Shown here piece after piece: positions 47,814 through 54,504 of a stretch of DNA of 64,000 nucleotides; the stretch's first letter is position 1, and each line of letters opens with the position of its first letter. Both the position numbers and the translations under genes were made by a program. Source of the stretch: Candidatus Chlorohelix allophototropha (GTDB lineage Bacteria; Chloroflexota; Chloroflexia; Chloroheliales; Chloroheliaceae); NCBI RefSeq assembly GCF_030389965.1, contig NZ_CP128400.1, forward strand, positions 496,001 through 560,000, given 5' to 3'. The notes under the pieces were generated by a model that worked only from the letters and a program-made list of their open reading frames with translations, had not been told where the DNA came from and searched no databases.

Positions 47814-47977
47814 CTTACGGCTTCATAACTGGATAGCAGTGGAGAAGACCGACTTGCAAAGACTGTTCCCCGACCATTAGCGCTAGTAGCGGCAATTAGG
47901 CTTGTTACAGCGCAGTTATGCGACTGGCTATCCGCGATAAGCTTACGCACGCGCTGAATGGTTGGGTGTCCCGTAAG
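47814..47977 (+). ncRNA. Candidate IS110 bridge RNA
   Basis: The non-coding left end folds with long-range pairs. CTTACGG (47814-47820) pairs with CCGTAAG (47971-47977), and inside it GGATAGCAGT (47831-47840) pairs with ACTGGCTATCC (47923-47933) with one bulged G. The position (left end, just before the transposase) and size (about 165 nt) agree with known IS110-group bridge RNAs, which carry target- and donor-binding loops. The exact loops were not resolved. Confidence 0.55.
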
Positions 47978-48028
47978 TTCAATAGTGCATTGTGTAGCAG
48001 CCCTTTTAGCTGGACTAAGGTGCAAAAA

Positions 48029-49306
48029 ATGATTACTCCTCCATGTGAAACCCCAAAGCAAGCCTCAATAGGTCGGCTGTTTGCCGTGGGTATTGATGTA
48101 GGTTGTGAGAAGTGTAGTATAAGTGTACTTCGCCCTGACAAAACAGTAGTCATCAAGCCTCTCGAATTTACTAATGACGCGCAAGGTTATGCTTTTGTGC
48201 TGACTAAGCTCGAAAGTTTAGGGGTAATACCAGCTCAAATCACCATCGGCTTGGAAGCGACTGGACGTTACTGGGAAAACTTGTATCACTATCTAGCCAG
48301 ATTGGGTTATAATTTAATTCTTTTACATCCGGTCCAAACCCATCAGTTCGCACAACGTCGTGGTTTACGGGCTAAAACTGATGCCTTGGATGCTGGAACG
48401 ATTGCCAGGGTAGTCCTAAGCGATGAGGCTCGACCAGCTTATGTGCCAGGTGATTTGGTGGCGACCTATCGCGAATTAGTTCGGCTTCATTCCAACCTAG
48501 CCGATGAAATTGGTCGCTATCGAAATGAAATTCACGCCTTACTTTTTGTTATATTTCCAGAATATACTCAGGTCTTTGCTGACCCCTGCCGCCCCACTGC
48601 CCTGTCCTTATATCCTAGCCGTCAAGCAATTGCAGAAGTTCCTATAGGAATTCTAAGTGCTAAACTCATTGAATTAAGTAACGGTCATTATGGTTTGAAA
48701 ACCGCTGAACGGCTACTTACATTGAGTAAAAAATCTGCCAGTAGTGGGCTTGCCAGTAATGCCCGTGCCCAGGGCTTAGTGATTTTGTGCGACCAATTGC
48801 TACATACCCAGGCTAACCTTGAGATTTTAGAAAGTGAAATTGCTCAACTACTGCAAAAAGATGAAGCAGCCAAGAAGTTGGCTGAAATCCCCGAATTTGG
48901 ACCAAAAACCATCGCAGGGTTACGGGCAGAGCTAGGCGAAGTTGGACGTTTTACCAATTGTAATCAGGTGGTGGCCTACGCTGGGCTAGATTTAACCGTG
49001 AAGGAAAGCGGAAAATGGAAAGGCAAGGTGAAACTTTCCAAGCGTGGCAGTGGTCGGTTGCGGCGCCTGTTATACATGGTGGCATTAGTCAGTTTGCGTC
49101 TTAAAGTATCTGCCTTTGGGGACTATTACCGCGAATTAAGGAAGCGTGGCATGAATGGGCGCAGTGCATTGATGGCGGTTATGCGTAAGATGTTAATCAC
49201 AGCTTACTCTTTGTTAAAGAACGACAGCACCTTCGACCCGAAAAAAGTCTGGATCGGTGCTAAGTTTGTGGCCAAAGAGTTACCATTGGTTGCTCAGGTG
49301 GCTTGA
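48029..49306 (+). CDS. IS110 family transposase
   Basis: The 425-residue recombinase has a RuvC-like DEDD domain: VGIDVGCEKCSISVL (Asp), IGLEATGRYW (Glu) and KTDALDAGTIARV (two Asp). The C-terminal Tnp domain carries LSKRGSGRLRRLLYMVAL with the catalytic Ser. Such enzymes insert DNA guided by the element's bridge RNA. The ATG at 48029 follows AAGG; an upstream in-frame ATG at 47918 lies inside the RNA region and is rejected. Intact. Confidence 0.95.
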   Translation: MITPPCETPKQASIGRLFAVGIDVGCEKCSISVLRPDKTVVIKPLEFTNDAQGYAFVLTKLESLGVIPAQITIGLEATGRYWENLYHYLARLGYNLILLHPVQTHQFAQRRGLRAKTDALDAGTIARVVLSDEARPAYVPGDLVATYRELVRLHSNLADEIGRYRNEIHALLFVIFPEYTQVFADPCRPTALSLYPSRQAIAEVPIGILSAKLIELSNGHYGLKTAERLLTLSKKSASSGLASNARAQGLVILCDQLLHTQANLEILESEIAQLLQKDEAAKKLAEIPEFGPKTIAGLRAELGEVGRFTNCNQVVAYAGLDLTVKESGKWKGKVKLSKRGSGRLRRLLYMVALVSLRLKVSAFGDYYRELRKRGMNGRSALMAVMRKMLITAYSLLKNDSTFDPKKVWIGAKFVAKELPLVAQVA

Positions 49307-51762: not shown

Positions 51763-52572
51763 TCAGAACTGCGAATTTTGGAAGCGCAACCAGAAATTCC
51801 CGCTAAGTTTCGCCGGGTCGGCAATAACGCCAAAACGCTTGAAATAGCGGCATAGGTTTGTAATATCGCGCTCCAACAGCCATTCAGAATTCTTGTTAAA
51901 GCGTGCATCCACCGCTTGCGGAAAATCAATAATCCTGATTTGCTCTTGCCAGTAAAGCACATTGAAGGGAGACAAATCGCTATGGACGATATTCAGGCTT
52001 AGAAATAACTCAATGTTGTGCATCAAACGCTCGAAAACAATCTTAGCTTCCGCGTTCTCCAATTCGACATTGTTAAGAATCGGGGCTGCCAGATCGCCTT
52101 CGCCCAGAAACTCCATCAATATAGAATTGCCACGTTGGGCATAGGGTTTTGGTACGTCCGCACCAGCCCTATACATCATGTGCAAATAGATATATTCTTG
52201 ATTACTCCACAACCCGCTGGACATCACTTTGCCCCACTCGCTCTTTTTTCGCATGGCGCGAACATCATGTTGATTTAGCACAACCCGCCCCTCTCGGTAG
52301 GTAGCGTCGTTCTTGAAGTTGCGATTCTCACGCGGGATATAAACCTTTAGAGCCAGATAATCCGAATCCATTTGTGGGGTGGCTTCGCAGCAATAAACTT
52401 TCGCTTCCTTGCCGCTTTTAACCAAACGCAACATCTGCGTGATCATTTTTTCTTTCACATAAGGCTCGAATGGATTAGATTCGGGTTCTTCTCGACCCTT
52501 TTTCCGGTTAAATTGTTCAAACTGGTCTAGTAGCTCTGATTCTTCGCTCTTGTAATTAAATTTATTCTTCAA
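51763..52572 (-). CDS. RIO-type serine kinase
   Basis: This 269-residue RIO1-like kinase has the P-loop SGKEAKVYCC, the catalytic Lys in YLALKVYIP, ILMEFLGEGDLAAP (hinge), the catalytic loop IVHSDLSPFNVL (HxDLxxxN) and the metal-binding IRIIDFPQAVD. RIO kinases act in ribosome maturation in Archaea and Eukarya; the bacterial role is poorly known. The TTG start at 52572 is chosen because GAGG lies 8 nt upstream; the longer frame to 52635 enters the leader. It is preceded by a leader peptide and terminator. Confidence 0.92.
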   Translation of the reverse strand: MKNKFNYKSEESELLDQFEQFNRKKGREEPESNPFEPYVKEKMITQMLRLVKSGKEAKVYCCEATPQMDSDYLALKVYIPRENRNFKNDATYREGRVVLNQHDVRAMRKKSEWGKVMSSGLWSNQEYIYLHMMYRAGADVPKPYAQRGNSILMEFLGEGDLAAPILNNVELENAEAKIVFERLMHNIELFLSLNIVHSDLSPFNVLYWQEQIRIIDFPQAVDARFNKNSEWLLERDITNLCRYFKRFGVIADPAKLSGNFWLRFQNSQF

Positions 52573-52694
52573 GATAGTCACCTCAGTAGAATTAAAATTT
52601 TTAGTAGGCTTGGTAATACACCGCCGCACCTGCAAAAGGTCTTTTAATCGAGTTGCTATTCTGAAACAACAGAGCTTTCAACGAATAGATTTAA

Positions 52695-52728
52695 CCAAAA
52701 AACCGGCAGGCTAATAGTTCGCGCCTGC
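52695..52728 (-). terminator. Attenuator-like terminator before the RIO kinase gene
   Basis: On the minus strand, stem GCAGGC/GCCTGC (52723-52728 with 52706-52711, extended by flanking C/G pairs) is followed by six T. It lies between the 19-codon leader frame and the RIO kinase start, so it would cut off the kinase mRNA unless prevented. Confidence 0.75.
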
Positions 52729-52793
52729 GGTCTTCAATCCATTTATGAGGAAAAACCGAATGGGGATTTCTCAGGATAGAAAATTATCAACCT

Positions 52794-52853
52794 TCAAGAG
52801 CGCGAGAGTATGCTTTTTAGGCGGTGTAAGGTACTAACAAGGACTTTCTTCAT
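52794..52853 (-). CDS. 19-residue leader peptide
   Basis: A 19-codon frame begins with ATG 8 nt after a perfect AGGAGG (52862-52867) and encodes MKKVLVSTLHRLKSILSRS. It sits between a near-consensus promoter and an intrinsic terminator, upstream of the RIO kinase gene. This is the arrangement of a translated leader that controls attenuation. It could instead be an independent small basic peptide. Confidence 0.65.
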   Translation of the reverse strand: MKKVLVSTLHRLKSILSRS

Positions 52854-52904
52854 ACTGCTTTCCTCCTAATAGGGTATAACTCAATACTTTGATTAGCTGT
52901 TTGT

Positions 52905-52933
52905 ATTATACGCACAGATTGTAAAAACGTCAA
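52905..52933 (-). promoter_or_regulatory. Near-consensus promoter of the leader/RIO kinase unit
   Basis: On the minus strand TTGACG (52928-52933) and TATAAT (52905-52910) are 17 nt apart. Similar TATTGACGT-like motifs recur upstream at 52968-52976 and 52984-52992. Confidence 0.85.
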
Positions 52934-53006: not shown

Positions 53007-54504
53007 TTGACGTTTAGATAAACGGGGCTATAGGAAATAGAAACCCGTATCGGAACTTACAAAAGAATGACAGTTTGTAGCCAGTTACCAGCAAATTTAA
53101 CAGCGAATATTCGTCAAATTAGAGGTAGAAAACCCCTTTTTGACCACCTTATAGCGGGTAGCCGGTCTTACTTTGGTGCCAACCGCTCGACCCTTCCCAT
53201 TTCCTCGCACTTTGCTGGCTTTGGCCGGACTGCCCAACTGCACAATTATTCCGGACAAGCCTCGTCGAATTTGCTGAGGGCTTGGCTGTCGTTGACTATT
53301 TTCCCAAGGTCGCAACACTTCCAAGCCCAAGCCTTGAGCGATTTGCAATTCGTCGTGTACCAAACTGACTATCGCCGTCCACAACTCAAACTGGCTCGGA
53401 TAGCGCAAGCGTGGTTTTTCCCACAACAAATCTTGTTTGTCAAAACGATAGCCGTGTTCTATCGAGTAACGCCTCTTGTAATACGACCAGACTTGCGTCA
53501 GGTCAAGCTCAGTTTGACCCGACCACACATACCAACTTTCCAGAGGGTCATGGGTTTTACCACTGGCTGCCTCACGCTGTATTCGGATTATGCTCAGTGC
53601 CAGTTCAGGTGCTTCCCTCAAATGCAGCTCAGTCCATGCGCTTACTACCAGTTTGTGTCCATTTTCGTCCGTCCCAACCCACACTCGCTGCGGCAAACCG
53701 TGCGTATTGGGATCATTACATTGGAAACGAGCACCGTGTTTAGCGGGAGCGCCGCGACCTCGTTTCTGCTCATCTCTCACCACTTTTCGATAGAATACTC
53801 GGTTAGACTTGAGCCGCAGCAGCAAGTCATAGTCCTTACTGCTATTTTGAATAAATGCTTTGGTGGGGTAGTACCGGTCTCCCAGATTGAGCGGTCTTTC
53901 AGCAAAATATGGGCGCAATTCGCTCAGTTGCTGGCTGGCTACCTCTGCTGGTGTTTGACTGGTTTTGATCCTGCGGTTGGAGACAATGTATGTATGGCTA
54001 CTGGTTTGAGCCGGCACCACCACCACGGTCGAGAATTGCCAACCCACGGTCACGGGCTTATCACAATTGGGCAGATTGTGTTTGTAAAGCCAGCCACGAT
54101 CTGCAGATGTAGTGCTAAAGGGTCGCTCGATATTGGTAGCATCCACTGCCAGTACCAATCTTTCACCATCGAAGGGATGAGGGGCGTAGCGCACCATGGT
54201 TTGCTCGAAGCGAGTTTGGTTAACTTGACCCATTTGCAAAGCCTCATACAAACTGGGCCATTTTCGCTCAAAATTGGGCGAAAGGGTCAGTTCCAGTACC
54301 GATTGAGCCTGGCTTTCTGTCATAAGGGCATCCGCCAGATTAAACAATGCGTCACTGGCGTATTCAAAGCAGTCATAGATTTCGTGCCGAAATTCTTTAA
54401 GTGTGTTAAGGTTCATACGAGTAGTGTCCTTTCTCAATTAGAACATTACTCGTCTGGGCAAGTTGTGCCAACACTGCTTGCCCTTTGGTTTATCTAAACG
54501 TCAA
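53007..54504 (-). mobile_element. IS701/IS4-like insertion sequence with 17-bp inverted ends
   Basis: Perfect inverted repeats TTGACGTTTAGATAAAC lie at 53007-53023 and, reversed, at 54488-54504. They enclose one intact transposase on the minus strand. The flanking bases ATAGG on both sides are a partial, not clean, target repeat. Confidence 0.88.
53097..54416 (-). CDS. DDE transposase, IS701/IS4-like
   Basis: This 439-residue DDE_5-type transposase has VLAVDATNIERP (first Asp), LGDRYYPTKAFI (second Asp) and YYKRRYSIEHGYRFDKQDL (catalytic Glu in the YxxRxxIE-like block). It is intact. The ATG at 54416 (MNLNTLKEF) is chosen, with AAAGGA upstream; a TTG at 54437 would add seven residues over that site. 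A long open frame on the opposite strand (53067-54497) is a shadow of this gene. Confidence 0.94.
   Translation of the reverse strand: MNLNTLKEFRHEIYDCFEYASDALFNLADALMTESQAQSVLELTLSPNFERKWPSLYEALQMGQVNQTRFEQTMVRYAPHPFDGERLVLAVDATNIERPFSTTSADRGWLYKHNLPNCDKPVTVGWQFSTVVVVPAQTSSHTYIVSNRRIKTSQTPAEVASQQLSELRPYFAERPLNLGDRYYPTKAFIQNSSKDYDLLLRLKSNRVFYRKVVRDEQKRGRGAPAKHGARFQCNDPNTHGLPQRVWVGTDENGHKLVVSAWTELHLREAPELALSIIRIQREAASGKTHDPLESWYVWSGQTELDLTQVWSYYKRRYSIEHGYRFDKQDLLWEKPRLRYPSQFELWTAIVSLVHDELQIAQGLGLEVLRPWENSQRQPSPQQIRRGLSGIIVQLGSPAKASKVRGNGKGRAVGTKVRPATRYKVVKKGFSTSNLTNIRC

Follow-up and report, generated by a model that had tools for sequence, protein, structure and literature searches.

Locus architecture

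The window, a 64,000-nucleotide stretch of Candidatus Chlorohelix allophototropha DNA (contig NZ_CP128400.1, positions 496,001 to 560,000), carries on its minus strand a RIO-type kinase gene preceded by a leader (Table 1). The predicted product matches the Pfam RIO1 family (PF01163, 1.1e-37), and the motifs SGKEAKVY, HSDLSPFNVL and IDFPQAVD are all found in it. Its closest solved structures are those of archaeal Rio1 (1e-24), with the catalytic motifs aligned. The protein shows the RIO domain expected of a RIO1-type kinase, including its P-loop, catalytic and metal-binding motifs. It is not a member of the PA4780 family of RIO1-like kinases (NF041645), for which it scored 174.8 bits, below the curated cut-off of 350 bits. 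Archaeal and eukaryotic RIO relatives act in ribosome maturation; what RIO kinases do in bacteria is obscure and poorly understood.

Table 1. Features of the RIO kinase gene and its leader, in window coordinates.
Feature	Position	Strand	Details
Sigma-70-type promoter TTGACG-17-TATAAT	52905..52933	-	-35 TTGACG 52933-52928, 17-nt spacer, -10 TATAAT 52910-52905; 11/12 matches
Segment 1, uORF Shine-Dalgarno (SD) region	52855..52874	-	AGGAGG 52867-52862, 8 nt ahead of the uORF ATG; can pair with segment 2 (anti-antiterminator)
Leader ORF (uORF) MKKVLVSTLHRLKSILSRS	52794..52853	-	ATG at 52853; 19 codons and stop; short ORF with SD of at least 6 nt at 65/116 RIO loci
Segment 2, uORF 3' end CTCGCGCTCTTGAAGG	52791..52806	-	Partner: segment 1 or segment 3
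Intermediate hairpin	52737..52777	-	RNAfold; position-equivalent hairpins in Anaerolineae; analogy to vmlR SL-2
Segment 3, terminator 5' arm and part of loop, ACCGCAGGCGCGAA	52718..52731	-	Core CCGCAGGCGCG common to Anaerolineae RIO leaders
Intrinsic terminator hairpin and six-T run (segments 3:4)	52697..52732	-	Hairpin 52732-52701, GACCGCAGGC-11 nt-GCCTGCCGGTT; six T at 52702-52697; sequence, folding
RIO-type kinase gene, 269 aa	51763..52572	-	TTG start at 52572, stop at 51763; SD GAGGTGA 52584-52578

The promoter is the best promoter match of the region, and transcription is expected to start near position 52898. The terminator hairpin lies 61 nt past the uORF, with a folding energy of about -15 kcal/mol. 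Together, promoter, translatable uORF and intrinsic terminator make the leader a candidate ribosome-mediated transcription attenuator. All of these parts, AGGAGG and the kinase gene included, lie where a preliminary description of this DNA had placed them. In a scan of 464 kb on both strands, comprising the window and another 400 kb (two stretches of the same genome and 18 stretches of other Chloroflexota), no other site combined a promoter of at least 10/12 matches with an SD-preceded uORF and a terminator. The leader element is present in a single copy in its own genome (6.09 Mb, five replicons). No known Rfam family reached its gathering score in the window or in 20 relatives, and the folding energy of the single leader sequence was uninformative (z about -1.1).

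A DDE_5 transposase gene (53097-54437) adjoins the RIO promoter directly upstream. A short-read contig from the same strain (L002) breaks near position 53052, which would fit a repeated insertion sequence having its edge there. Another ORF that resembles a transposase (IS110-like by eye) lies on the plus strand at 47918-49306.

Conservation across RIO loci

We gathered RIO relatives in Chloroflexota by protein search and inspected their upstream DNA for uORFs, defined as ATG-initiated frames of 10 to 35 codons with an SD match of at least 6, within 400 nt of the gene. Such strong-SD uORFs precede 65 of 116 Chloroflexota RIO loci, compared with 7 of 298 control genes (Fisher p 1.7e-35), and the controls drop to 3 of 176 if the ORF must sit in a true gap. 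Some of the loci missed by this definition have a near-consensus SD (L007-L010, L012). A terminator was found between uORF and RIO gene in 82 of 116 leaders, against 21 of 116 reverse-complement controls. These relatives are not independent of one another, and the family-level tests given below lessen this non-independence without abolishing it. None of the Pseudomonadota RIO loci that we inspected (L145-L150) has such a uORF. Outside Chloroflexota, strong-SD short ORFs precede RIO at single loci in Deinococcus radiophilus (L151, upstream of 1339) and Nonomuraea gerenzanensis (L152, upstream of 1288).

The uORF peptides are unrelated between families, and the window and its sibling genus also have different ones. 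The preliminary description had expected the leader frame to be conserved in relatives with the same gene; the frame is indeed kept, the amino acid sequence is not. It had also proposed that ribosomes stall in a basic, Leu/Ser-rich peptide, an idea that finds no support, since the peptide varies even inside the family, where L011-L014 have other peptides. The leader peptide is probably not the signal. The same variability bears on amino-acid attenuation of the trp or his type, in which the leader would sense one aminoacyl-tRNA. The order of parts is identical in such attenuators, but the 19 codons contain no codon runs that could serve as regulatory codons, and the RIO kinase, like the RsgA and exporter genes described below, is non-biosynthetic, making this explanation very unlikely.

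In the sibling genus, TTGACA-17-TATTAT or TATAGT stands where the window has its promoter; promoter and uORF are kept there, with no terminator. In two of its loci, L011 and L014, 4 nt separate the uORF stop from the RIO start, and the final codons of the uORF double as the RIO SD. The sibling leader may be a translational variant that uses coupling. The uORFs of L011, L013 and L014, all lacking the terminator, read MAVFSS...KHLRS, and in L013 the frame reads on. A shared peptide signal ending in LRS was considered and rejected, as those codons are the RIO SD in L011 and L014.

The arrangement in L011 and L014 is what would be expected of a constitutive leader, in which reinitiation or coupling from the uORF would boost RIO translation and the terminator would do no more than keep basal expression low, with no sensing. 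For leader genes, an effect of this sort has already been proposed (PMC4833913). In the window and most families, however, a stretch of 80-450 nt that includes a terminator separates uORF and RIO gene, too far for reinitiation, and the pairing of the uORF with both SD and terminator arm is conserved. We consider a constitutive leader unlikely.

Base pairing in the leader

Anaerolineae uORFs have a near-invariant GCGCCTCC at their end, complementary to the SD of the uORF as well as to CCGCAGGCGCG in the terminator arm. This terminator core is common to the window and Anaerolineae, though the window belongs to another class. The Anaerolineae C-terminal motif GCGCCTC is invariant at the nucleotide level, which is explained by pairing. 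We rejected the encoded C-terminal motif FSAPPxGE as an arrest peptide because GCG CCT C is near-invariant as nucleotides and its codons pair with the SD and the terminator.

Both pairings were compared with those of codon-shuffled uORFs. Pairing of the SD with the uORF end was stronger than in the shuffles (mean z -1.3), with negative values in 22 of 25 families. Pairing of the uORF end with the terminator arm gave a mean z of -1.5 (p<0.05 in 33 of 76) and was stronger between cognate partners (-17.6 kcal/mol) than between non-cognate ones (-13.8 kcal/mol). Since the pairing had first been seen in Anaerolineae, we repeated the tests without families f19 and f51. For SD pairing, 18 of 23 families still exceeded their shuffles (p 0.0003), as did 10 of 13 for terminator-arm pairing (p 0.02). 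Covariation supports the SD helix and the terminator, while support for the antiterminator is weaker because its columns vary little. For the window leader taken alone, neither pairing differed significantly from codon shuffles (segments 1:2, z -0.9; segments 2:3, z -0.4, p 0.30). An antiterminator overlapping both the terminator 5' arm and the uORF is found for the leader class; in the window it is a prediction that is not individually significant.

In three second RIO genes of family f30 (L094, L102, L107), the uORF end CCCGGAGGTAA repeats the uORF's own SD, and the anti-SD CCCTCC lies between the SD and this repeat.

The preliminary description had named a stem at 52746-52773 as a possible antiterminator. 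This stem exists, inside the larger intermediate hairpin, but it does not overlap the terminator hairpin, so the two are not mutually exclusive and the proposed role does not hold. More likely, the antiterminator forms when segment 2 pairs with segment 3 in the 5' arm and loop of the terminator. The stem is better read as part of an intermediate hairpin at the apex of this predicted antiterminator, in the manner of vmlR SL-2. Anaerolineae leaders have hairpins of varying sequence at the equivalent position, 3' of the uORF stop.

We folded the window transcript as it would stand before the 3' arm of the terminator is made. About 11 pairs formed between uORF and terminator arm with no ribosome or with a ribosome at codons 1-5, and 3-4 pairs with a ribosome at codon 7 onwards. 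This fits the logic of antitermination by an early stall, whereas equilibrium folding of the complete window leader with a ribosome footprint does not show it: wherever the ribosome is placed, the completed terminator prevails and no switch appears. Switching in the window would therefore have to be kinetic. Among the leaders run, L153, L176, L090 and L037 were the only ones in which equilibrium folding dipped clearly at codons 1-3. As the ribosome-free window fold keeps its 2:3 pairs, the role of the 1:2 pairing appears weak in the window.

Leaders upstream of other genes

A covariance model, R1, was trained on 37 leaders, all from Anaerolineae. Across the 6.09 Mb of the window's own genome, it ranked the window leader first and at full length (17.6 bits, E 0.89), ahead of a partial match at 14.7 bits. 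The score is weak and the rank informative; antisense matches inside true leaders reach similar R1 scores, and the rank is therefore best taken as support rather than proof. Model R2 also placed the window site first, matching its 3' part alone. Beyond weak matches, neither model found further leader copies in this genome; its ABC exporter pairs are without the leader, and a query for RsgA gave no match.

Within Anaerolineae genomes, R1 and R2 find the leader before genes other than RIO, which were assigned by Pfam for a part and otherwise by close sequence likeness to Pfam-scanned genes. These include DrrA-type ABC exporter operons (L214-L217, L219), heterodimeric ABC exporters (L221, L223, L225, L230, L231, L247, L251 and others), GNAT acetyltransferases (L224, L226-L228, L232, L246, L264) and RsgA, a ribosome-assembly (30S) factor (L220, L229, L262, L263). 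The leader architecture before exporters, GNATs and RsgA was seen across L214-L217, L219-L221, L223-L232 and L246-L264. The uORFs of exporters and GNATs often end in P(P/S)RSAPVDR, which again corresponds to an anti-SD (GTGCGCCT) and not to a peptide signal.

Association with exporter, GNAT and RsgA leaders suggests that the RIO kinase belongs to a ribosome-stress response. These targets also bear on a different sensor, in which an SD sequestered in a hairpin would report competent 30S binding and lingering initiation complexes would lead to RIO synthesis. In most families the SD can be sequestered by the anti-SD in the uORF; RIO and RsgA are small-subunit factors by homology; and yeast Rio1 inspects the 3' end of 18S rRNA (PMC11045238). 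Such a sensor of initiation or 30S availability is indistinguishable by sequence from early elongation stalling, but drug exporters and GNATs with the leader fit inhibitors better, and we regard it as improbable.

Proposed mechanism

We propose that the leader is, with good probability, a ribosome-mediated transcription attenuator of the vmlR/bmrB type that turns RIO on upon early ribosome stalling in the uORF. That a translation-controlled attenuator precedes the RIO kinase had been put forward in the preliminary description, and the comparative evidence from uORFs, terminators, pairing and covariance models backs it. The strong promoter would drive synthesis of a leader RNA on which the 19-codon uORF is initiated efficiently. 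As long as no ribosome occupies the uORF, segment 2 could pair with the SD in segment 1, leaving the terminator (3:4) free to form. When the uORF is translated to its end, ribosomes would cover segment 2 and the terminator would again form. RIO would be off in both states. A ribosome held at the start or first codons, by a translation inhibitor or other ribosome stress, would cover segment 1 and leave segment 2 free. Segment 2 would then pair with segment 3 once this is transcribed, pre-empting the terminator so that the kinase mRNA could be finished.

The proposal builds on what can be read from the DNA: a promoter, uORF and terminator that are conserved across the phylum, and pairing with covariation in relatives. 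From these we infer that the leader switches in vivo, with early ribosome stalling as the signal, and that the RIO kinase would help cells with ribosome damage or faulty 30S subunits. A broader reading is plausible though not quite probable: an undescribed leader family of Chloroflexota, possibly also of Deinococcota and Actinomycetota, may govern a translation-stress regulon that is distributed and has no master regulator. Competition in these leaders would be among three elements, the SD of the uORF, the end of the uORF and a terminator arm that mimics an SD, and the RIO kinase would be a core member of the regulon acting on damaged or drug-bound small ribosomal subunits. If true, the shared translation-sensing leader would place bacterial RIO kinase in the ribosome-stress response, which would match its archaeal and eukaryotic relatives. 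It would also extend ribosome-mediated attenuation to Chloroflexota, for which we found no published example in the open-access literature.

Comparison with known systems

The translation attenuators of ermC and cat-86 share with this leader a leader peptide ORF and alternative pairing. Their target is the main gene's SD, whereas here a terminator would be controlled.

The logic of ribosome-mediated attenuation has been proven by experiment in Bacillus subtilis for vmlR (PMC9226507) and bmrB (PMC4191407). In topology the present leader is most like vmlR, in logic like bmrB. The vmlR leader is alike in its uORF-containing anti-antiterminator, its intermediate hairpin at the apex and its intrinsic terminator; there too ribosome position decides and uORF variants are tolerated (PMC9226507). 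It differs in having a tripeptide uORF with a single-stranded SD, where the leaders described here have 16-33 codons and an SD paired by the uORF 3' end, and in its target, an ABCF resistance factor instead of a RIO kinase (PMC9226507). The bmrB leader of bmrCD is likewise a ribosome-mediated attenuator, and it controls a heterodimeric multidrug ABC exporter (PMC4191407), comparable to the Anaerolineae leaders before paired exporters. It has 53 codons, comes from a Firmicute, has no demonstrated sequence relation to the present leaders and is not known for a kinase.

WblC/WhiB7 is also subject to uORF attenuation, induced by drugs that target translation (PMC7157823). The WblC regulon of Streptomyces includes ABC proteins, GNATs and a paralogue of RsgA (PMC7157823), classes that recur here. 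In that system one attenuated regulator switches on the regulon in trans (PMC7157823), whereas here each target seems to own a leader in cis.
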